Source of the DNA: a virus
Length of the DNA stretch: 31,220 nucleotides
Reading direction: 5' to 3' (one strand)
IMG/VR virus record: IMGVR_UViG_3300020125_000101
Span: 1-31,220 of that record
Positions 4,286 to 22,760 of this stretch are shown here, piece after piece. Numbering within the stretch: the stretch's first letter is position 1; each line of letters starts with the position of its first letter. Both the position numbers and the translations under genes were made by a program. Under the pieces are notes generated by a model. That model ran no database searches and had not been told where the DNA came from. It saw nothing but the letters and a program-made list of their open reading frames with translations.

Positions 4286-4800
4286 TGGCAATTAGCGAAC
4301 GCAAGGCATACAAAGAACTCATTTGGTATTACTGCAGCTCTTCCGCCGATTTAGGCATTAGTTCCAGTTTTGGGTCTATCATTGCGTCCGCATTTGGCTT
4401 TTCACCATCCAATTCAGTCAATCATGTAGAGAATAAGATGGTCGGACTCATCTCCCAACCGAAAGGCTCTCCTGTCAAAAAGCTGAGAAAGATTGAAAAA
4501 GCCCTGGCTTCTATCCCAAGACAACAACGCCGCATTCTTGATGCCATCTATGGCAATTACATCTTCCCACCCCAATTGACCTCAGTATTTGGCCAAAAGA
4601 CAGGCGCGGCCCTATTCAATAACCTCATCACAGAATTACCAAAATTAATTCAACTTTGCACGAAAAAATTGTCCAAAAATAAGCTAACCTCAGAAGACGT
4701 CAATTTACTACAACAAATAGAAGAGCAGAAAGAGCTACTATTTGTCCAAGCCCACCAAGTATATTTAAGGGAAAGAGCCAAACATGACCTCCAACCTTAA
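4285..4800 (+). CDS. Hypothetical protein, 171 aa
   Basis: I do not recognise this protein with confidence. It begins with a helical, aromatic segment (Y-K-E-L-I-W-Y-Y), has a Ser/Phe-rich linker, and then a basic helical region near residues 72-95 (L-A-S-I-P-R-Q-Q-R-R-I-L-D-A-I-Y-G). The last third is a long Lys/Leu/Glu-rich helix. The middle region faintly recalls helix-turn-helix late-gene activators of phages, and its place upstream of the terminase genes would suit that, but this is weak. The end overlaps the next gene by 17 bp. Confidence 0.6.
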   Translation: MAISERKAYKELIWYYCSSSADLGISSSFGSIIASAFGFSPSNSVNHVENKMVGLISQPKGSPVKKLRKIEKALASIPRQQRRILDAIYGNYIFPPQLTSVFGQKTGAALFNNLITELPKLIQLCTKKLSKNKLTSEDVNLLQQIEEQKELLFVQAHQVYLRERAKHDLQP

Positions 4801-5641: not shown

Positions 5642-7047
5642 ACGAAACTACATCAATTCTACCAGAAAACGATGGATTTAGCACCAATATTGACCAATTT
5701 CGTGCAAAATTCCAGCAAATCCCACTTTCTGATAGGCCAAAATATCTGAAAAAGATGTCTCCAGGGGAGCTTCGCTTTCTCTTTCAAAATCCCCAAATCT
5801 TTCTCTTCGATAAACAAATACCCCCTTCAACCAATTGGAGATATCATTGGTATCGTGGCGGAAGAGGGATTGGCAAAACTTTCGCCTCCACTTCTTGGCT
5901 CTATGAGAAGATTATCAATGGCGCCAGAGAAGTTGCCATCGTTGGCCCCGACTATTCTACTCTCATCAAAGAAATACTACCAATCTTTGAATCCCATTTC
6001 CCACCTGACCAAATACCTAAATTTAATGGCAAAGACAATATGTATAAATGTCATAATGGATGTATTGTAAAGGTGTATTCAAGTGAGACAGAGATTCGTG
6101 GATTGAATGCTGAGTATGGAATTGCAGAAGAAATCTGCAAATGGTGCGACGGTATTCCCGATAAAATCAAAGACAGATTCCGCCTATTCAATTTGGGAGT
6201 TAGAAGCCGCCGAGCCAAACCCAATCCACAAATCTTCATTGCCTCTACCCCAAAACCATTCCCTATCTTCATCGAGTTCGAGAAAGAGTTCTTAGCCGGC
6301 AACCCAGACTACTCCATGGTCATCGCTGAGACCAAAGAGAACATCTATCTATCTGAGGCAACCAAACGAGCCTACTATGCTGAATACGGCAATACCAGAT
6401 TCGGTCGCCAAGAGCTATATGGTGATTTGTTGGTGGATAACCCAGATGCATTGTGGAAAGCTGACATATTGGAGAAATGTCATATCACTCAGCAGGTATT
6501 CGATAAGCTATTGAGAGATGGCGTATTGAAGGTTATCAAAGCGGTCGTTGCTGCTGATCCGGCTGTGACAACCAATAAATTCTCTGATGAGACCGGTTTG
6601 ATAGCTGCCTGCCTGTGTAGCGACAACAAAGTCTATATATTGGAAGACGCTTCTGGTAAATTGACTCCCGAGCAGTGGGCCAGCAAGGCAGTCGAGCTAT
6701 ACAAGAAATACAATGCCGCCCACATCATCATGGAATCTAATCAAGGTGGAAACCTATTAGAGCAAGCCATTAAGACAGTGGATAGGTATGTCAGAACCCA
6801 ACTCATTCATGCTTCAGTGGGTAAGCAGACCAGATTCGAGCCAGTCGTAATGGCTTATGAACGAGGGGAAGTCTATCATGTGGGAAACCTACTTGGCCTT
6901 GAAAGCCAAATGTTGTCATATAATCCATATTTGGGCAATCAATCATCACCAGACAGAGCAGATGCTGCGGCTTATTGCGTATATTATCTACTGCTGGGTC
7001 AAGCCGCTCCAGTTCAACGATCCACTAAGAATTTCGGTTCTTGGTAA
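5638..7047 (+). CDS. terL: Terminase large subunit (packaging ATPase and nuclease)
   Basis: The 469-residue protein has the two domains of the phage packaging motor. The Walker A loop is R-G-G-R-G-I-G-K-T (residues 73-81). A Walker B-like strand with acidic pair is at 158-166 (A-E-Y-G-I-A-E-E-I), and the coupling motif is I-F-I-A-S-T-P (199-205). The phage-type 'G-N-T-R-F-G-R-Q-E-L-Y-G-D-L' linker is at 251-264. The RNase H-like nuclease domain shows A-D-P-A with Asp307, Glu366 in I-I-M-E-S-N-Q-G-G, and Asp439/Asp442 in S-P-D-R-A-D-A. All key acidic residues are present, so the enzyme looks active. It translocates and cuts DNA at the portal. It overlaps the small subunit gene by 4 bp. Confidence 0.95.
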   Translation: MNETTSILPENDGFSTNIDQFRAKFQQIPLSDRPKYLKKMSPGELRFLFQNPQIFLFDKQIPPSTNWRYHWYRGGRGIGKTFASTSWLYEKIINGAREVAIVGPDYSTLIKEILPIFESHFPPDQIPKFNGKDNMYKCHNGCIVKVYSSETEIRGLNAEYGIAEEICKWCDGIPDKIKDRFRLFNLGVRSRRAKPNPQIFIASTPKPFPIFIEFEKEFLAGNPDYSMVIAETKENIYLSEATKRAYYAEYGNTRFGRQELYGDLLVDNPDALWKADILEKCHITQQVFDKLLRDGVLKVIKAVVAADPAVTTNKFSDETGLIAACLCSDNKVYILEDASGKLTPEQWASKAVELYKKYNAAHIIMESNQGGNLLEQAIKTVDRYVRTQLIHASVGKQTRFEPVVMAYERGEVYHVGNLLGLESQMLSYNPYLGNQSSPDRADAAAYCVYYLLLGQAAPVQRSTKNFGSW

Positions 7048-7063
7048 TATAAGGTAAAACACA

Positions 7064-9220
7064 ATGGTTACTTTTAAAACACTTGACTCCAAAAACTCAG
7101 CCTTCAACCCAGGACTATTACAGCGCCTCCATGTTCTGTATAAAGGTGGATATGATGTTTGGAACAATGCAGACCTATTTCTACACCAATTAGCATCTGA
7201 AACCACCGCTTCATTCGAAGATCGTAAGCAATGTGCGGCCTATCTACCATTGATGTCTGATACCATCGATTACTATGCAGCTATGTTATTCTCTGGCGAA
7301 ATGTCAGTGACCGAAGCTGCCGATGCTGATGATGAAGGCACTTTGGGCGATGAAGCAGATGATGAATCTGTGTATAAACTATTCTTGGCTTGTGCTAATC
7401 TAAGAGGTAATTCATTAGAAGAAGTAATGCGCCATACCACTACTGACGCCCTAATGTATGGTTATGCTTTTGTGGGAGTTGATTTCCCCCGTTCTGATGA
7501 ATTGCCAACCACTCTATTGGAAGAAGAAGTTCTTCAAGTAGCTCGCCCTTACTTATGTGATATTGATCCAGATTGTGTTATTAATTGGTCATGTAATGAG
7601 GCCGATAAGTTCAATTGGGTAGTTATTAAGTCAGACAATGTAGTTCAGCCTGATCCATTGCAACCTCCAATGCACCAAGTAGAGTTCAAGATTTGGAAGA
7701 TGGAGAATGGATTTGCTAAATGGCAACTATACCAAACTGACCTATTGAAGATGGGTAAGCAGCCAAATCCAAATGACGATGTAGCATTGGTAGAAGAGGG
7801 AACCACTTCATTCAAAGAGATTCCAGTTCTTAAGCTATGTTTGCCAACTGGATTATCATTAGGGCCAAAGATTGCTCCAATGTGTGAAAATATCTTCCAA
7901 AGAACTTCTATTCTATTCAATGGTGAAAACAAATCACTCAATGCAATGAGAGTTGTATTTCTTGGAGACGAATCTAATGCTCCAGGTGGGCCAACTCCAG
8001 CTATGGTTCAAGAGAATCCATTTCGTCATTTGACATTGCAGACTGATTGGGAATCTAAGGGATTTGGTGTGTTAGGCGCTAATGACAAAATGGATATCAT
8101 TGAATCCCAAGGCCACGCCTTTAAGATTGTTGATGAACAGATTGATCGTCAGATTGAGAAGGTTAAAGAGACCGTTCATCAGATGTCTAATACTGCTGCC
8201 GCTTCTAAGGGTTCTAAGAGCCAAGGTCGTTCGGCTGCTGCTCAACAAGAATCAAGACATGCCACTGAGATTCTATTAACGGCTTATGGTAATATCGTTA
8301 GAGATTACATCAAATCTATTATGAATTGTATCTCTACAGCTCGTAATGAATCAATTGTATGGACAGTTGATGGATTTGAGAACTTCACTATTATGGATCG
8401 CTCTCAATTGACTGAAGAGGCTAAGAATTTCCCTCAGGTTATTCAGGATAGCAAAAGTCAGACATTCAGTAGGCTCTATACTGAGAAGTTCTATTTGGGA
8501 TTGTTAGATGGCGCTTCTCATGAAGAAGCTAAGCAGATTCGTCGTGAGATCTTGGACGCTATCGACAAAGCAGCGATGGCACCAGATATGCAGGGAGCAA
8601 CAGCCGTGCCCCAGCTCAATCAGGCAGCTAAACCCGATTCTGGTCAATCTGATGAAACTATGGCCCTTGGCCCAGCAGGACAACCTCTATTGCCAGAAGG
8701 TTCTCATCTACAAACTGGCGAACACATTGATCCACAAGAAGTATTTGATCATTTAGCACAAGACTATAATGAGAAAGACATTGATTGGGTATTGCATATT
8801 CCATGGATTGGCCCAGTAGAAGTTCCACTTAACTCAATTGATTTCTCCAATAAAGATAACTGGCAAGCTACTCAAGATGAAGATCATGTAGAGATGTTTG
8901 CTGATAAGATGTCTAATGACAACATGACTAAGCCAATTGTATTGGTTAATGCGCCAGCTCAGGACGGCAAGATGATGATTGTCGATGGACATCATAGGGC
9001 ATTGGCCGCATTGCAAAATGGACAGCCAGTTCCAGCTTATGTTGGACAGGTAGGTCGTTTGCAAGGCCCATGGAGCAAACTGCATTCCAAGCAAGTTGGC
9101 AAGAAACAAGGTTCTGGTTTATTGGCCAGTTCTCAGCAAGTTAATGCCACTTCACTTCAGAAAGACATCTCCAATCAGGTCAATCAGTCTGAAAGGGCTA
9201 AGGGCGGAAAGACAAAGTAA
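7064..9220 (+). CDS. Portal protein with C-terminal ParB-like domain
   Basis: The first 500 or so residues have the composition, length and gene position of a phage portal: it directly follows the large terminase and precedes scaffold and capsid genes. An acidic stretch lies at about 82-105. A long helix near 352-425 would fit the portal stem and wing. After a Pro/Gly/Gln-rich linker (about 505-560) comes a separate domain (about 570-675) with the pattern V-P-L-N-S-I, K-P-I-V-L-V, and I-V-D-G-H-H-R-A-L-A-A-L (His643, His644, Arg645), which matches ParB/sulfiredoxin-like nuclease-fold domains seen in some phage head proteins. Portal assignment is by context and general features; the ParB-like motif is visible in the sequence. 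The stop codon overlaps the next start (TAATG). Confidence 0.85.
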   Translation: MVTFKTLDSKNSAFNPGLLQRLHVLYKGGYDVWNNADLFLHQLASETTASFEDRKQCAAYLPLMSDTIDYYAAMLFSGEMSVTEAADADDEGTLGDEADDESVYKLFLACANLRGNSLEEVMRHTTTDALMYGYAFVGVDFPRSDELPTTLLEEEVLQVARPYLCDIDPDCVINWSCNEADKFNWVVIKSDNVVQPDPLQPPMHQVEFKIWKMENGFAKWQLYQTDLLKMGKQPNPNDDVALVEEGTTSFKEIPVLKLCLPTGLSLGPKIAPMCENIFQRTSILFNGENKSLNAMRVVFLGDESNAPGGPTPAMVQENPFRHLTLQTDWESKGFGVLGANDKMDIIESQGHAFKIVDEQIDRQIEKVKETVHQMSNTAAASKGSKSQGRSAAAQQESRHATEILLTAYGNIVRDYIKSIMNCISTARNESIVWTVDGFENFTIMDRSQLTEEAKNFPQVIQDSKSQTFSRLYTEKFYLGLLDGASHEEAKQIRREILDAIDKAAMAPDMQGATAVPQLNQAAKPDSGQSDETMALGPAGQPLLPEGSHLQTGEHIDPQEVFDHLAQDYNEKDIDWVLHIPWIGPVEVPLNSIDFSNKDNWQATQDEDHVEMFADKMSNDNMTKPIVLVNAPAQDGKMMIVDGHHRALAALQNGQPVPAYVGQVGRLQGPWSKLHSKQVGKKQGSGLLASSQQVNATSLQKDISNQVNQSERAKGGKTK

Positions 9221-14937: not shown

Positions 14938-16479
14938 ATGAGCTTACAACCAATTAACATCATCGGATTAGGGCCAAATGACCCGCCTGGCGTTTATCTA
15001 CAGGTTCAATTTGCCCAAGGGCAACCGAGCCTTGGTAATACCAAATACGCGGCACTCATTTTGGCAAATCTTGGCCCTGGCGCGACCGCAGGTGTTGATG
15101 GCTATGTTTATGGCCCTGACACCCAAGTAGGTATGTCCAGTAGCCAAGACGCTATCAACCTGTTCGGAGCTGGTTCTCCAGCCGCTCGTATGGTAGCTGC
15201 CTTCATGAAGGTCAATCCAAACACTCCACTCTATGTAGCACCAGTTGCTGCTGCTTCTGGGGCTGCTGCCACTATGGTTATTACCTTCACTGGCACTGCA
15301 ACTCTCTCAGGAACTATCCGTTGCCCAATCGTAGGTGATACTCCAGTTGATACTGGATTCTTAACTGGCGATAACGCAACCGCCGTTGCTGCTGCCGTTG
15401 CTGCTAACATCAATAGCCAAGTCAATTTGCCTGTCACTGCATTGGCATCTTCTGGCACACTTACCCTAACCGCTAAGGTCGTGGGTGCTCGTGGAAACTG
15501 GATTAGAGGTTCAGCCCGAGTTCTAACGGGTTCAGGTATTACTTCCAGCGTCCCAAGCCAGAGATTCTTCTCCGGTGGAAGCGGTGGCGACTCTTATACC
15601 AATGTTCTTAACTTCTTAGCTACTAACGGTATTAGATACTACTACTACATCACTGAAGCAGGATGTGATGCTGTCGATGCTTCTCAATTTGAAGCAGTTC
15701 AGGCACAGATTGATGTTCTATCTCAACCAACTATTGGTTTGCGTCAGCGTGCATTCGCTGGTTCTTCTGACACCTTGGCTCATACTGAAGCAACTACTGC
15801 TACAGTCAATGATGCAAGATGTGAGTGTATCTGGCTACAGAACTCTGACACCGTTCCATCTGAGTTGGCCGCTAACGCTGCTGCTGTTTATTCTCTCTTC
15901 GAAGTCCCACCTCTATCGGCTGGTGGCGTCAATTTCGACGGCTTCGGAAATGATCCAAACTCTGCACCATTTTGGAATGCAGTTGCTGCTCCGCTCGATG
16001 GCTCAGCGCCATCTACCGCTTCTATCAGAAGCGCAGTTCTTTCAGGCATCACTGCTTTGAAGGTTCAGCAAGGTGGTAGAACCAGCATCGTCAAGAGAAT
16101 TACCACTCATTATCTCAACGGTTCAGTCAATGACTACCGTATCACGGATTCTGGTAAGGTAACTATCTGCGACTTCTTTGGTGATGACTTGATTAGCCTT
16201 TTGGTTCTTCGTTATCCGCGTAAATTGATTGGCACCGATCCAGTTCAGGGTCAGCCACCTCCAGGAGCAAATGTAGTTACTCCAAGCCAGGTTAGAAACA
16301 CCGTAATCGAATTGATTAATACCTATTCGGCTACTGGTTTAGTTGATGGCCCGTCTGTCATTAACTCTTTGGTAGTTCAGAGAGAAACTTCTCCAACAAG
16401 CAGAATTGGAATTCGAGTACCTCTATTCACTGCTGATCCACTACACACTTTCGGCGTCTCTGTCGATCAGGTTTCTTAA
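14938..16479 (+). CDS. Contractile tail sheath protein
   Basis: The 513-residue protein fits Mu/P2-type sheath proteins in length, position and layout. The N-terminus 'D-P-P-G-V-Y-L-Q-V' resembles the P-G-V-Y/E start of sheath proteins. A variable Ala/Thr/Gly-rich insertion occupies about 100-210. The C-terminal core has 'G-I-T-A-L-K-V-Q-Q-G-G-R-T-S-I-V-K-R-I-T-T' and 'S-R-I-G-I-R-V-P-L-F-T-A-D-P-L-H', the conserved assembly domain pattern. Its presence shows that the phage has a contractile tail. It is followed 16 bp later by the tube gene. Confidence 0.9.
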   Translation: MSLQPINIIGLGPNDPPGVYLQVQFAQGQPSLGNTKYAALILANLGPGATAGVDGYVYGPDTQVGMSSSQDAINLFGAGSPAARMVAAFMKVNPNTPLYVAPVAAASGAAATMVITFTGTATLSGTIRCPIVGDTPVDTGFLTGDNATAVAAAVAANINSQVNLPVTALASSGTLTLTAKVVGARGNWIRGSARVLTGSGITSSVPSQRFFSGGSGGDSYTNVLNFLATNGIRYYYYITEAGCDAVDASQFEAVQAQIDVLSQPTIGLRQRAFAGSSDTLAHTEATTATVNDARCECIWLQNSDTVPSELAANAAAVYSLFEVPPLSAGGVNFDGFGNDPNSAPFWNAVAAPLDGSAPSTASIRSAVLSGITALKVQQGGRTSIVKRITTHYLNGSVNDYRITDSGKVTICDFFGDDLISLLVLRYPRKLIGTDPVQGQPPPGANVVTPSQVRNTVIELINTYSATGLVDGPSVINSLVVQRETSPTSRIGIRVPLFTADPLHTFGVSVDQVS

Positions 16480-16495
16480 TAAGGACAAATAACAA

Positions 16496-16966
16496 ATGCC
16501 AAGCTTACCAACTACATCTCCATTCACTCCACAAGAGTATAGCCCACTATTTGTATCAATTAATGATACTCCACAAGATCAGGTTCAGTCTGTCACTCTT
16601 GACCAAATGAGCGGAGCGGCAGATGTCGAAACCATCATGAGAGAATGGGCAGGCGTCGTTAAAGGCGCTGCTCGCACAGAATGCACTATCAAATCTGTTG
16701 TTCCATACATCGACACTGACACTGGCGGTGTAGGTTTCAACACTGGTGGTGATACGGCTGCCGGCACTCAACTTGCTGCAACTATGATCACTTCGCTTAA
16801 CCAAAATCTTAACCAGCCTGTTAAGTTCATCATTGCCGTTGGCTCCCCAGCCGTTCAGCAATATGTCTTCAAGGGCTTCGTTAAAGATGTCACTGTTGAT
16901 TATGCCATTGGCAAGCAGGTAGATGTTACCTACAAATGCACTGGCCAACTTTCTCTTTTCCAATAA
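16496..16966 (+). CDS. Tail tube protein
   Basis: The 156-residue, beta-rich protein follows the sheath gene, as the tube does in myoviruses. Gly/Thr-rich loops (about 73-90) and a hydrophobic terminal strand 'D-V-T-Y-K-C-T-G-Q-L-S-L-F' suit the tube fold. It should stack in hexameric rings inside the sheath around the tape measure. No diagnostic motif is present, so position carries most weight. It is followed by a long untranslated region with hairpins. Confidence 0.8.
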   Translation: MPSLPTTSPFTPQEYSPLFVSINDTPQDQVQSVTLDQMSGAADVETIMREWAGVVKGAARTECTIKSVVPYIDTDTGGVGFNTGGDTAAGTQLAATMITSLNQNLNQPVKFIIAVGSPAVQQYVFKGFVKDVTVDYAIGKQVDVTYKCTGQLSLFQ

Positions 16967-17146: not shown

Positions 17147-17161
17147 CATCAGGACAAACAC

Positions 17162-17767
17162 ATGACAGACAACAACGATAACCTTTACGCACAGCTAACT
17201 CAGAGATGGCATATGATGGTAGAAATGCCATTCAAAACCAAAGAGGGACAAGTCATTACTCTTCCAATGGCAGTTCTATCAGGTAGGGAACTATTCGAAG
17301 CCAAGCAAAAAGCAGAGGCTGATACCCGCGCTTCTTATGGCAAAGACATTCCCAAGAAAGATGAAGCCTCCGAGTGGGATACTAAATACTCTGACCATCT
17401 TGCCTATTGGACTATCTTCTTCTCAGTTAGACAACCTCATGATATGAACAAGAGACTGTTTCCAACTAAAGAAGCGGTTATGGAGGCTTTGACCCCTGAC
17501 CAAGCTGGTATTCTATCTAACCATTACATGACTGTTCAATTGAACCAGCCATGGCTGACCAACCTATCTAACGATGATCCAGATAAGGTGGAGGCTTTGA
17601 TCCAAAGGCTCATTCAGGATGGCAAAGACCCACATTTTTTTTTGAATTCTCTTACCTCGCACGCACAGAACATATTGATCAATTCTATGGCTGCAAAATT
17701 AGCGAAATTACAGATGGACAATGGATCGCCTACAATGCTGCCAGACGATGGTATGACGAGCAAATAA
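17162..17767 (+). CDS. Tail assembly chaperone, short form (0 frame)
   Basis: The 201-residue helical protein lies between tube and tape measure, where tail assembly chaperones are encoded. In Mu, P2 and lambda-type tails this gene produces a short form and, by -1 frameshifting, a long form. Both the position and a slippery T run at 17635-17643 fit that here. The frame is also open from a GTG at 17078, which has an AGGGG ribosome site and would add 28 residues (start M-A-G-I-F-T-H-E-L-P-D-G). The ATG at 17162 has AGGA at good spacing and avoids translating the terminator stem, so it is preferred, but not firmly. Confidence 0.75.
   Translation: MTDNNDNLYAQLTQRWHMMVEMPFKTKEGQVITLPMAVLSGRELFEAKQKAEADTRASYGKDIPKKDEASEWDTKYSDHLAYWTIFFSVRQPHDMNKRLFPTKEAVMEALTPDQAGILSNHYMTVQLNQPWLTNLSNDDPDKVEALIQRLIQDGKDPHFFLNSLTSHAQNILINSMAAKLAKLQMDNGSPTMLPDDGMTSK
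17635..17641 (+). promoter_or_regulatory. Slippery heptamer T-TTT-TTT for -1 frameshifting
   Basis: Nine T residues run from 17635 to 17643 in the reading context CAT-TTT-TTT-TTG. The heptamer T-TTT-TTT fits the X-XXY-YYZ rule. After a -1 slip the next codons are TTT-GAA-TTC and the frame stays open to 17871. No strong downstream pseudoknot was seen by eye. Confidence 0.75.
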
Positions 17768-17871
17768 ACCCAGACAAGTATAGACGCAGAGCAACCCTCA
17801 AAGAGCAGAAAACCAACAAGGTCAATTGGACTATTGATTCTGTTCTACACTTCCAAAACATAGTGATCTAA
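17641..17871 (+). CDS. Tail assembly chaperone, -1 frame extension (long form)
   Basis: In the -1 frame the sequence reads 76 codons without a stop from 17641 to a TAA at 17869-17871, one base before the tape measure ATG. The extension is protein-like: F-E-F-S-Y-L-A-R-T-E-H, a W-I-A-Y-N-A-A-R-R-W-Y-D-E-Q helix, then a basic Arg/Lys-rich stretch and a hydrophobic end. It has no start codon with ribosome site of its own, so it should be made only as a fusion of about 236 residues with the upstream frame. In lambda the matching T domain recruits the tape measure; that role is inferred here. Confidence 0.75.
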   Translation, partial: FEFSYLARTEHIDQFYGCKISEITDGQWIAYNAARRWYDEQINPDKYRRRATLKEQKTNKVNWTIDSVLHFQNIVI

Positions 17872-17872
17872 A

Positions 17873-20020
17873 ATGGTAGATAAAAAAGTTCAATTCAATG
17901 TAGTCGTAGGTGGAATTCCACAGCTCAAGAACTCCCTCAAAGGGGTGACTGAATCCGCTCGTGCTATGAATTTATCAGTTCAGCAAATGGGCGAACGCAC
18001 TGCTCAGCGTCTCATTGAATTAGAACGCAATAAATTGTCTGCTATCAAGAGAATTAACGATAGCCAGGTGGCTGACGAAGAGGCCAAGGCCCGTCGTATT
18101 GTCCAAATCGAAGAGAATGCTTCTCGCCAAATCACCTCCATCAAAGAGCGTGAGGTATTGAGAATCAAACACATGAATGAGAAATACATTCTTGATTCTC
18201 AATCTCAAGCGGGACAGAAGCTTAATCTTGGTCAAATTGGACAGATAGCATCTGCCAGTGGATTTAGTAAGACTGGTCATATACTACGAATCGCTAATCA
18301 ACTTGGTATTGGTAGTAAGATCAGTGGTGGCGGAGGTTCGGGCGGTGGTGGATTAGCTGCTGGTGCCGAAGGTGCAGGAGCAGAAGGCGCTGCGGCTGGT
18401 GGTGCAGAGGCGGGTGGAGCGGCAGCAGGAGCAGCCGGATTAGGTGCAGTTGCAGCAGTTGCCATTCCATTGGTCATTGCTCTTGGCGCCCTTTATGTAG
18501 AAGCTAAATTAGTTGAACTTGGTTTTGAATCTGTCAGCGAACAAGCTAAGTTCTTGGCCACCTCTTTCATTGGGGCCATTGCGCAAATCGGTGGAGCTAA
18601 GAACCTACAAGAGACTCTTGTTCATGCCGCCGAATCTGAGAAGGCTACTAAGACACTTCGTATGGCTGTTCTACCAGAAGAAAGGGCTTCTGAAAAAGAA
18701 CTCAGTGATATGACTGCTAAATTGGCAGCTAATCCCAAGTTGGGTGCTTTCGATTCCAATGAATGGAAGAAGGCTATCGACATCTTGGGAGTTGGAACTG
18801 GCGAACAGAAGTCTTTCTTGAAAGACCCATCTACATTAGAATTCATTGGAAATATGGCACATTTGAGAAATATGCCTCTTGACCAGATGGCTAATCTATA
18901 TGGTGAAATCAAACAACAGAACCCAACATTCAGCCATAGTGATGTCCAACAAACTCTATTGCGTGGAACCGCATTGGGCAGAAAGACCTCTTTCGATATT
19001 TCTGATATCCCACAAGCTAAAACTCTAATGACACAGTCTGTAAGATTATCAGGTGATCGTGGAGATAATATCCAAAAGCTATTGGGTATTGGAGCCATTC
19101 TAAAACCATATGCTGATGGTGGTATGTTAGGCGCTGGCATTGAAACTCAAGCTATTCTTGGCCAGGCTTACAAGTCCCATAGACAGGGCAATGATTTCGG
19201 GTTCAAATACGATAAGGCTGGTAGAGTAACTAATCTTCGTGAGGGCTTAGCTTTCAGCGTAGCCCATCACAATGATTTGGGTGCTCCAAAAACAGAAGAT
19301 GAAATCAAGGCCAATAAGGCTCTGATGCATCTCTCAGCCGCCGCTGGTGTTACTGAAAAAGATACCACTCAGCAACAGTATGATAAGGTTATGAAGTTGC
19401 TTGAGGCTAATGATGGACTAACTATGTCACTAAAACAGTTGAATGATGAATCAACTGAAACCATTAGCACCCAGGACAAACTAAAAGCAGAGTTCAACAA
19501 ACTAACTGACCAAATGGGCACTGCCTTGCTTCCAGTATTGAAAGACATGGTTCCATATGTTGAGACATTTGGTAAGACACTTGTTGATAATAAAGACCTA
19601 ATCACCGAGACTGTTAAGTTGATGATCAATGCTATGATTGAGCTGGTTCCAACCTCCATTCTCGTAGGTGGAGCATTGGCCAGATTGGGCATCGTTTTTG
19701 GTATTGTCATGCAGGCTCTTGGATACTGGGCAGATTCCATCACGGGTGGATTGTTCCATGATTCACTACAACCAATCATTGATGCTGGCAATGAAGTAGC
19801 CAAGTCTCAGGCCAATTTGGCATTGGTTCTTGATAACCTGGGAGACAACTTCAAAGAATTGAAGAAGAAACTGGCAGAAGTCAAAGTGCCAGAACCTGGA
19901 AGTGGAGTTATCACTATCCCAGAAGTTAAGATTGTCGGAGATGCTCATAACAAAGAAGTTGTTAGGGCTATTCAGGACATGCACCATGACCTTAAGACCA
20001 TCAATAAGCAACCACTATGA
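17873..20020 (+). CDS. Tape measure protein
   Basis: The 715-residue protein is mainly helical. A charged coiled coil covers about residues 35-110. A Gly/Ala-rich low-complexity stretch (151-195) leads into a hydrophobic segment (about 189-218). A second hydrophobic segment lies at about 582-619. Long helix plus membrane-like segments directly after the chaperone gene is the standard picture of a tape measure, which sets tail length and is ejected on infection. At about 1.5 angstrom per residue the tail would be near 100 nm, an inference. It overlaps the next gene by 4 bp. Confidence 0.9.
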   Translation: MVDKKVQFNVVVGGIPQLKNSLKGVTESARAMNLSVQQMGERTAQRLIELERNKLSAIKRINDSQVADEEAKARRIVQIEENASRQITSIKEREVLRIKHMNEKYILDSQSQAGQKLNLGQIGQIASASGFSKTGHILRIANQLGIGSKISGGGGSGGGGLAAGAEGAGAEGAAAGGAEAGGAAAGAAGLGAVAAVAIPLVIALGALYVEAKLVELGFESVSEQAKFLATSFIGAIAQIGGAKNLQETLVHAAESEKATKTLRMAVLPEERASEKELSDMTAKLAANPKLGAFDSNEWKKAIDILGVGTGEQKSFLKDPSTLEFIGNMAHLRNMPLDQMANLYGEIKQQNPTFSHSDVQQTLLRGTALGRKTSFDISDIPQAKTLMTQSVRLSGDRGDNIQKLLGIGAILKPYADGGMLGAGIETQAILGQAYKSHRQGNDFGFKYDKAGRVTNLREGLAFSVAHHNDLGAPKTEDEIKANKALMHLSAAAGVTEKDTTQQQYDKVMKLLEANDGLTMSLKQLNDESTETISTQDKLKAEFNKLTDQMGTALLPVLKDMVPYVETFGKTLVDNKDLITETVKLMINAMIELVPTSILVGGALARLGIVFGIVMQALGYWADSITGGLFHDSLQPIIDAGNEVAKSQANLALVLDNLGDNFKELKKKLAEVKVPEPGSGVITIPEVKIVGDAHNKEVVRAIQDMHHDLKTINKQPL

Positions 20021-21342
20021 CAATTACTCAACCAGTTTCTAACTTACCAGGCATTCAGAGCGCCACCGGAGGCAGCAGCCCTATTACTTTGCCTACTCAA
20101 GGTAATGCGCCAGCAAACTTCCCTGATAACCCACAAACTAATACGACTGACCCAGATCAGCTTAGCCATCTATTAGAGTTGAAGTTTGCTGGTATTCCAT
20201 TCCCAGCTACCAATTTCACCGAGAATAGCAGCCAAGATGTGGCCATTCACAAGTATCCAAATGTCGATAGCGCCAGAGTTGAATTAACTGGTCGTAATCC
20301 ATCTATCTATACTTTTAGAGCTTGTCTTACCAACAACATTTATCCAAGCACCAAAGAAAGTTGGAAGCAGGGCGATTTGTTCCCAAGGGTATTTGAGTTA
20401 CTCTTGAATGAACTCTATGACTCTACTGATTTCCATACTTTCCAACACCCATTTCTTGGGATTAGAAATGTGGTTCCAGTTACTTGGAGCTATAGTTTCA
20501 TTGGTGATGGGCCAAGAGATGGCGTCTATTTGGATGTTACCCTAACTGAGACTATTGGAGATGGTGATATCAAGACTACCATTTCTGCACCTTCTACTTT
20601 GGCTGATATGCAAAGCACCGCTGGTTCTATCGATACTGAACTCTCCAGCACCAAACTCAAGGCAATGAATCCGCCTAACCTCACTCTTGGTGAGTTCTTT
20701 AGCAAAATCAATGGATTTGTTAGAAATGTTGTCTCGTTCCCACAACAAACTATTGGCGCCTTGAATGCTCAAATTGTTCAGGTTAGTTCTTCTGTTCAAG
20801 GTGCTGGCGCTGCATTAGCTACTTCACCATTCCAATTATTCCAATCTGGTAAGGCCATTGTCAATCAGAACAAGGGACTAATTCTACATGGCCCAGTTTC
20901 CAATGCTTACTACTATGACAAGGCGGCTGCCACCCAAATCTTCCATTTGGATCAGGATGCTTTGAATAATGTATATGCTCGTGCTGGAGCTTTGAACAGC
21001 AACGCTAATAACAATGCAGCTCAGGCTATTGAGAATGCAATTGCATTTACTGAAGCTATGATTGTCTATTATCAATCATTGCACAGAGTAGAAACGGCAA
21101 CTATCGTCTTCTTCTTGTTCCAGTTTCTTGGTCAATTACAGACTGCTCTAATCTCTCTTTTCAATAACAACAGAAGCTACAAAATCAATACATATGTAGT
21201 TAGAGTTCCATCTACTTTGTTCGCCCTATCTAAGATACTCAATAACTCTATCCAGCAGCTTTTGCAACTAAACTCTGGTTTGAACAAGCTATATATTATC
21301 CCAGAAGGCACCGTCATTAGGTATTATCAGGCTTCACAATGA
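20017..21342 (+). CDS. Mu gp43/DNA circularisation-like baseplate protein
   Basis: The 441-residue protein follows the tape measure gene, as Mu gene 43 does. Its N-terminal domain (about 55-185) carries 'V-A-I-H-K-Y-P-N-V-D-S-A-R-V-E-L-T-G-R-N' and 'F-x-A-C-L', comparable with the 'H-x-Y-P... G-R-x-x-x-x-x-F' start of the family called DNA circularisation proteins. The middle is Ser/Gln/Ala-rich and helical. The C-terminus reads 'L-Y-I-I-P-E-G-T-V-I-R-Y', possibly a LysM-like edge. It probably belongs to the hub end of the tail. The old family name does not imply a proven role in DNA circularisation. Confidence 0.6.
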   Translation: MTITQPVSNLPGIQSATGGSSPITLPTQGNAPANFPDNPQTNTTDPDQLSHLLELKFAGIPFPATNFTENSSQDVAIHKYPNVDSARVELTGRNPSIYTFRACLTNNIYPSTKESWKQGDLFPRVFELLLNELYDSTDFHTFQHPFLGIRNVVPVTWSYSFIGDGPRDGVYLDVTLTETIGDGDIKTTISAPSTLADMQSTAGSIDTELSSTKLKAMNPPNLTLGEFFSKINGFVRNVVSFPQQTIGALNAQIVQVSSSVQGAGAALATSPFQLFQSGKAIVNQNKGLILHGPVSNAYYYDKAAATQIFHLDQDALNNVYARAGALNSNANNNAAQAIENAIAFTEAMIVYYQSLHRVETATIVFFLFQFLGQLQTALISLFNNNRSYKINTYVVRVPSTLFALSKILNNSIQQLLQLNSGLNKLYIIPEGTVIRYYQASQ

Positions 21343-22760
21343 CTAACAACACGCTCACTCTCCAAGATGCAGTCAATAATGGATCGCAAGATGTCATTAT
21401 TGCCAAGTTTGACCCCAGCTTAGGAACAGGTCATGGGGCGTCATCTTATTGGGGTGATGATCTTGTTGCCACCTCTTATAGAATCACCAAAGACTTTTTC
21501 GGTGGCCCAGATACTTTCTCTATAGATTTTGAAGACGATAGAGCTGACCAACTACTTGACACTATTGCAGTAGGTATGAAGGTTTCATTCGAAGCCCAGC
21601 AATCTGGCCAACAGATTCTATTGGGCTTCGTGGATACCATCAACATTACCCCAAAACGCTCTGGTGGCAAAAGAATGACTGTGACTGGCCGAGATATCCT
21701 GGGGCTGTTAGAAGATTCCAGCCTATATCCCAATTTGGGAGATAACTCAGTTACTCAAACCTACCAGTTCAAACCAACTGATACTTTGGAGAAGGTAGTT
21801 AAGACCATCTTTCAGTCAGCTCCAGGTATTACTGATTTCATCATCAATGACGATAGAAAAGGTTTAACAGCCGCTACAGGATTTGGTGTTGGTATTAGAC
21901 AGAAGGGCAAGACCGGTCGTGGTCAAGCCAGAAACTTCAAGAACAATCTTGATCATTTGCTGAAACCAGAAAAAGGTGAAACATATCTTGGTTATGCCAA
22001 GAGAATCTGCACCAGAGCCGGATGCCAAATCAAGATGTTGCCAGGTAGTTACACTACCATTTTCATCGGGCCACCAACTTATGACAGAGATAATAACCCT
22101 CCATTTTTCATCAAGAGATTTGCTATCAGCAGTTTAGATAGCAATGTTCTTGATTCAAGAATGACCATTAACTACAAAGACCAACCTTCTATTATCATTG
22201 CAGAAGGCAGCCATGGCGGCCCTACTTTCAAGAAATCAACGCAGAAGGTTATGGTTATCAACGAATTCACTGGATACAAAAGAACACCTGGCATTCAATT
22301 GTCTCTTGCTTCAGCTATCCCTAATGTCAAGAATGCTGTTGATAATCTAACCAGTGGAACTACTGGCTATATTCTTTTACCACCAAACCAAGACCTATAC
22401 AATGTGGTTCCGCAAACTATTGCAGATATGCAAACCAATGTGTCGAGACCAAAATATGTAGTTGATTACAACGCACAAACTACTGATGAGTTGAAGTTCT
22501 ATACGGCTGAACTGATGGCTCATTACCAAGACCAATACTTCGTGTTGGAATATGAGGTGCAGGGACATAGTCAGCAGGGAGCTTATTGGGCGCCTAATCT
22601 AATGGTGCAAGTCCAAGACGAGTCTTTTCACCCAGAGAAAAGTATCAATGGTAAGTTTTGGATTCGTAAAGTGGAGATGATGAGAGATAGACATGGTGGA
22701 TGTAGAACTAAACTAACATTGAATCTGCCCTATATTCATGTTTACGATATTACAGGATAA
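21339..22760 (+). CDS. Baseplate hub protein, Mu gp44/P2 gpD-like
   Basis: The 473-residue protein starts with a hub-type domain: S-Y-R-I-T-K-D, F-S-I-D-F-E-D-D, I-L-L-G-F-V-D-T, and V-T-G-R-D-I-L-G-L-L-E-D (about 108-120). The 'G-R-[SD]-x-x-x-D-L/L-E-D' strand-helix is typical of gp27/gpD-like hubs. A Lys/Arg-rich loop lies near 195-215, and a second beta domain follows to the end. It should form the ring from which the spike hangs. It overlaps the previous gene by 4 bp. Confidence 0.8.
   Translation: MTNNTLTLQDAVNNGSQDVIIAKFDPSLGTGHGASSYWGDDLVATSYRITKDFFGGPDTFSIDFEDDRADQLLDTIAVGMKVSFEAQQSGQQILLGFVDTINITPKRSGGKRMTVTGRDILGLLEDSSLYPNLGDNSVTQTYQFKPTDTLEKVVKTIFQSAPGITDFIINDDRKGLTAATGFGVGIRQKGKTGRGQARNFKNNLDHLLKPEKGETYLGYAKRICTRAGCQIKMLPGSYTTIFIGPPTYDRDNNPPFFIKRFAISSLDSNVLDSRMTINYKDQPSIIIAEGSHGGPTFKKSTQKVMVINEFTGYKRTPGIQLSLASAIPNVKNAVDNLTSGTTGYILLPPNQDLYNVVPQTIADMQTNVSRPKYVVDYNAQTTDELKFYTAELMAHYQDQYFVLEYEVQGHSQQGAYWAPNLMVQVQDESFHPEKSINGKFWIRKVEMMRDRHGGCRTKLTLNLPYIHVYDITG

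Follow-up and report, generated by a model that had tools for sequence, protein, structure and literature searches.

The 31,220-base window analysed here is a virus contig from an uncultured contractile-tailed phage, in which the tail genes lie on the + strand in the order sheath, tube, chaperone, tape measure and baseplate hub. The tail sheath protein (14938..16479, 513 aa) was recognised with PHROG 165 (E 2.5e-62), and two baseplate hub proteins with PHROG 184 (20017..21342, E 7e-18) and PHROG 177 (21339..22760, E 2.6e-21). Tube and tape measure were named from their position and because they match their counterparts in related contigs. The probable tail tube gene (16496..16966), for which no PHROG or Pfam match was found, follows the sheath gene and matches the post-sheath gene of relatives (e.g. 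L010, E 3e-13); the probable tape measure protein (17873..20020, 715 aa) was named from its position and length and matches, in L012 (E 3e-12) and in L018, the gene that lies 3' of the chaperone. The placing of the chaperone between tube and tape measure in the preliminary description was therefore upheld, by PHROG on the outer sides (sheath and hub) and by position and relatives' matches on the inner ones. Elsewhere in the window, a 718-aa ORF (7064-9220) encodes a portal protein, with PHROG 145 matched at residues 20-255 and a C-terminal ParB-like domain (PHROG 1033) at residues 587-652. A prophage scan of genome contigs with a sheath alignment found none.

The chaperone gene starts with the ATG at 17162, preceded by a Shine-Dalgarno-like AGGA (17151..17154), and its 0-frame product of 201 aa ends with the stop at 17767 (17162..17767). 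By inspection of the sequence, a run of nine Ts (T9, 17635..17643) is read from this ATG as CAT TTT TTT TTG, so that it contains two overlapping in-frame heptamers, TTTTTTT (17635-17641) and TTTTTTG (17638-17644). The -1 frame is open from the run onwards (17641..17871) and encodes a C-terminal segment of 76 aa followed by a TAA at 17869-17871, which ends one base 5' of the tape measure ATG (17873). The predicted frameshift product is 236 aa long and has its first 160 residues in common with the 201-aa product. The preliminary description, which had proposed a -1 frameshift at the T-TTT-TTT heptamer of this run, had given the run, its codons, the 76-codon -1 frame, the 0-frame stop and the neighbouring tape measure ATG correctly.

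It had also described the -1 segment as lacking a start of its own, and this was borne out: the frame holds no ORF of at least 50 aa with an ATG, GTG or TTG start, and the segment is free of methionine. Both observations count against reading the segment as an independent small gene translated from a start codon of its own, and so does the conserved motif of the relatives (below), which sets in directly at the slip site. Such extensions are sometimes annotated separately, a possible case being the hypothetical protein upstream of the tape measure gene in Klebsiella phage ST405-OXA48phi1.1. For the present locus, a separate gene is highly improbable.

The T run alone is no evidence for frameshifting, since 0.95 T9 runs are expected in shuffled sequence, which is not above chance. 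In the other genes of the window, the -1 frame stays open for at least 76 codons from 1.5% of in-frame positions. As judged from sequence comparison, it is conservation in relatives that puts the arrangement of T9 and open -1 frame far above chance.

Comparison with close relatives

Two contigs with close relatives (L002 and L003) have chaperones 100% and 93% identical to that of the window, and both keep T9 and the open -1 frame. A scan in which the T count was allowed to vary found no contig beyond these two. A T count other than nine, which would alter the frames and had been named beforehand as grounds for rejecting the frameshift, was thus looked for, and the same count was present in both contigs, so an assembly error in the T count is unlikely.

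Selection on the -1 frame was visible in the differences between L003 and the window. Before the slip site, 45 of 58 differences fell at frame-0 third positions; after it, 10 of 16 fell at -1-frame third positions (p 0.016), and most differences inside the overlap of the two frames were amino acid changes when read in frame 0. A block of 86 bases around the site (17615-17700) was identical despite an overall identity of 89% (permutation p 0.0008). The 0-frame stop is TAA in the window and TGA in L003, so that the stop itself is kept.

The tape measure ATG (17873) lacks a clear Shine-Dalgarno sequence and is separated by one base from the stop of the -1 frame upstream (17869-17873). Translation of the tape measure gene might therefore depend on shifted ribosomes; a 20-base insertion at this place in L003 (about 4700-4735) indicates that tight coupling is not conserved.

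Comparison with distant relatives

A sheath-based search yielded 15 more distant contigs, with sheath proteins about 37-45% identical to that of the window. All 15 have, before the tape measure gene, a gene that is homologous over its N-terminal part and continues in a -1 extension, which starts at the homologous site and carries a shared motif (RF..lG..edp..fyGvp...LlDGh.l.W.AAR). A canonical slippery heptamer is present at the site in 13 of them, namely CCCTTTC in nine, CCCTTTA in two, and CCCTTTG and TTTTTTA in one each. In the remaining two the site is non-canonical (TTTCCCT in L011; CTCCTTTTTAT in L016, 8055-8066) and the -1 extension is nevertheless kept. Rare codons occur at the site: CCT makes up 4-14% of Pro codons in most of the GC-rich relatives, and TTA 0-1% of Leu codons in L015 and L018. 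A GenBank record, MW202476.1 (Caudoviricetes sp.), also encodes a chaperone homologue; its slippery site is CCCTTTA, and its -1 extension is homologous too.

The 15 extensions, with the window left out, were made into a profile, which among 669 six-frame segments matched only the -1 frame of the window (E 4.3e-10; next 0.8). The extension is thus kept open in related phages (two close and 15 distant contigs, and MW202476.1), and alignment to their long forms, as had been suggested for a check, gave homologous extensions with the same start point, nearly all at a slippery heptamer. A tblastn search of 50,697 phage records with the 0-frame protein, the fusion and a family-like consensus gave no match.

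These relatives bear on whether the split could stem from faulty assembly or from a recent frameshift mutation in what was one uninterrupted gene. Indel errors do arise in runs such as T9. Its count, however, recurs in two other contigs, the split has one and the same position in all 15 distant relatives, mostly on different slippery bases, and the 0-frame tail is stop-free and conserved, with its stop maintained as TGA in L003. With these observations the idea of an error or mutation is barely conceivable.

The same comparison helps to separate two kinds of slippage. The preliminary description had mentioned slippage during transcription as an alternative; in the phage of the window, RNA polymerase would add one base (T10) or lose two (T7) on T9, and ribosomes would read the shifted message normally. 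In many bacterial genomes, selection against slippage begins to show once runs of A or T reach nine, and sites of 9A or 9T were examined there for a use in gene expression (PMC1088944); T9 is the only A/T run of at least eight in the window. Against this, the relatives make the switch on CCCTTTC, CCCTTTA, CCCTTTG or TTTTTTA, where no homopolymer reaches seven bases, loss of a single base (T8) would lead straight to a TGA and cut the product short, and T9 holds two perfect heptamers for -1 slippage of ribosomes. A homopolymer of about nine or more A or T was found in the lineage of the window only and is not conserved across the family, which argues against transcript slippage as the family mechanism and does not argue against some slippage on T9 here. 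For the window's own phage, transcript slippage as the source of the shift is unlikely. Because most relatives are without a long homopolymer, ribosomal slippage is favoured for the family on this sequence comparison.

Chaperone identity and structure prediction

Searches of the chaperone and its relatives against Pfam and PHROG gave no match with a useful score, and the 0-frame protein had no match by sequence to solved structures; low sequence similarity is usual among tail assembly chaperones (PMC5009743). The structure of the 0-frame protein was predicted from an alignment of the 17-member family (pLDDT 74.8, pTM 0.62). With VIA-align, the model matched the tail assembly chaperone of HK97 best (2ob9; Z 9.3, 2.8 A, 104 of 107 residues), followed by YqbN (3klu; Z 7.2) and then by chains with Z of at most 5.1, so that the HK97 score stands clearly apart from those of unrelated structures. 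Foldseek ranked 2ob9 and 3klu at the top too, with weak E-values of 0.2-0.3 (2ob9: E 0.3, probability 0.93). Many BFVD matches carried the name tail assembly chaperone, their E-values being weak as well. The 0-frame protein is thus predicted to fold like the HK97 tail assembly chaperone, in agreement with the identity first proposed for it, and it belongs to an unnamed family without a Pfam or PHROG model.

Overlapping C-termini

After the slip site, the last 41 codons of frame 0 and the stop (17642..17767) overlap the -1 extension, and in 16 genomes both frames are conserved and free of stops. Over the 32 codons that follow the site, the mean pairwise BLOSUM score per column was 2.13 in the -1 frame and 1.23 in frame 0, both without stops, versus 0.51 in the third frame, which served as control and contained 27 stops. 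Since both frames exceed the control, both products seem to carry a constrained C-terminus on this sequence measure; the conservation of frame 0 may in part be a by-product of that of the -1 frame.

The C-termini overlap by about 40 codons, the 0-frame tail being 41 codons long in the window and 40-86 in relatives, and the shifted product is shorter than the 0-frame product in 9 of the 15 genomes measured. With two conserved, overlapping C-termini and a shifted form that is often the shorter one, the site would swap tails. The -1 frameshift of the preliminary description stands, and its reading of the -1 segment as a plain extension needs amending, the arrangement being more a swap of overlapping C-termini. 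That the slip trades one working C-terminus for a second one, with about 35-40 codons selected in two frames and the 0-frame tail doing a tail-assembly job of its own, is an idea to which we give slightly less than even chances. If true, the 0-frame tail would have its own role and would not be a leftover of the short form.

Possible stimulators

The region 3' of T9 in the window contains no stable RNA structure (z +1.5 and +2.1, less structured than shuffled sequences). Among the relatives, only L010 differed, the 75 bases 3' of its CCCTTTG (from 7941) folding far better than shuffles (z -6.6). On the 5' side of the slippery site of the window, a weak Shine-Dalgarno-like AGGATGG (17616..17622) is a possible stimulator, with an anti-Shine-Dalgarno pairing energy of -6.5 kcal/mol that is in the best 10% of local windows. 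Stronger motifs of the GGAGG type are found upstream of the sites in many relatives, and the enrichment of Shine-Dalgarno-like motifs over the relatives (Fisher p 4e-9) is confounded by a conserved Glu-Gly-Gly-Ser peptide encoded there, which may explain these motifs.

Discussion

The slippery site, the conserved extension, the profile match and the predicted fold together point to a programmed -1 frameshift of the lambda G/GT or P2 E/E' type. We are highly confident that the tail chaperone gene at 17162 of this contractile-tailed phage gives two products by a -1 slip on T-TTT-TTT, presumably with a division of labour like that of lambda gpG and gpGT. Most ribosomes would stay in frame 0 and make the 201-aa protein, and a minority would slip back one base on the heptamer and make the 236-aa protein with its different C-terminus. 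The analysis shows the sequence features, their conservation, selection on the -1 frame and a predicted chaperone fold; we infer the frameshifting itself, its rate and its ribosomal nature. The roles of the two products follow the model of lambda, where the tape measure is the partner of the short form and the tube protein that of the -1 domain (PMC5009743). By this analogy, many copies of the short form would coat the tape measure protein, the few copies of the shifted form would bring in tube subunits by way of the domain encoded in the -1 frame, and both forms would leave the finished tail.

Among known systems, gene E of P2 (E and E+E', -1 at TTTTTTG) is alike in its contractile tail, its position just before the tape measure gene, its T-rich heptamer and its two products with a common N-terminus. 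P2 and the window also have in common that there is no downstream hairpin, and the P2 frameshift has been described without one (PMC3091744). P2 differs in that its 0-frame stop follows the slip after about 20 bases (19685 to 19705), whereas the window has a tail of 41 codons, and no sequence match of the window chaperone to P2 E was found. The chaperones of lambda (gpG/gpGT) and of the HK97 type occupy the same genomic place and follow the same logic, and the 0-frame model resembles HK97 2ob9; they differ in their slippery bases, and no sequence similarity to them was found. The window family is set apart from them by its long dual-coding overlap and by a shifted product that is the shorter one in many relatives. 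As far as the systems compared here go, this long overlap is the only feature by which the family deviates from the textbook arrangement. The likeness to lambda and P2 drawn in the preliminary description thus holds, and that to Mu does not, as -2 frameshifting has been reported for Mu (PMC5009743) and the shift here is -1.

UOF77310.1, the protein of MW202476.1, is a chaperone homologue (E 1.7e-24) with a homologous -1 extension (E 1.7e-5) that differs from the window in having CCCTTTA in place of T9 and an insertion in the extension, and it is annotated as hypothetical, without a frameshift. Salmonella phage ST64B, which is Mu-like, has a sheath about 26% identical to that of the window, and its sb15 carries an in-frame TTTTTTT; neither family profile, however, matches the sb15 region. 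In that record (L028, 6448), the TTTTTTT and a -1 frame of 52 codons lie before the tape measure gene, and no frameshift is annotated. Klebsiella phage ST405-OXA48phi1.1 (L026, 6420-6632) has AAAAAAG and a -1 frame of 68 codons before the tape measure gene, and the small hypothetical protein annotated separately at 6516-6632 is in this same -1 frame.

On sequence grounds, the locus is very probably a well-supported new example of a frameshift trick already known from lambda and P2. With it, the frameshifting tail chaperones of contractile phages would gain a family that neither Pfam nor PHROG recognises. The shifted product is of a kind that gene finders miss, as seen in the GenBank relative MW202476.1, which lacks its annotation. 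The family also lends itself to clean comparison: a single slippery site has been rebuilt from different bases (CCCTTTC, CCCTTTA, CCCTTTG, TTTTTTA and T9) without a change of position or the loss of either reading frame.
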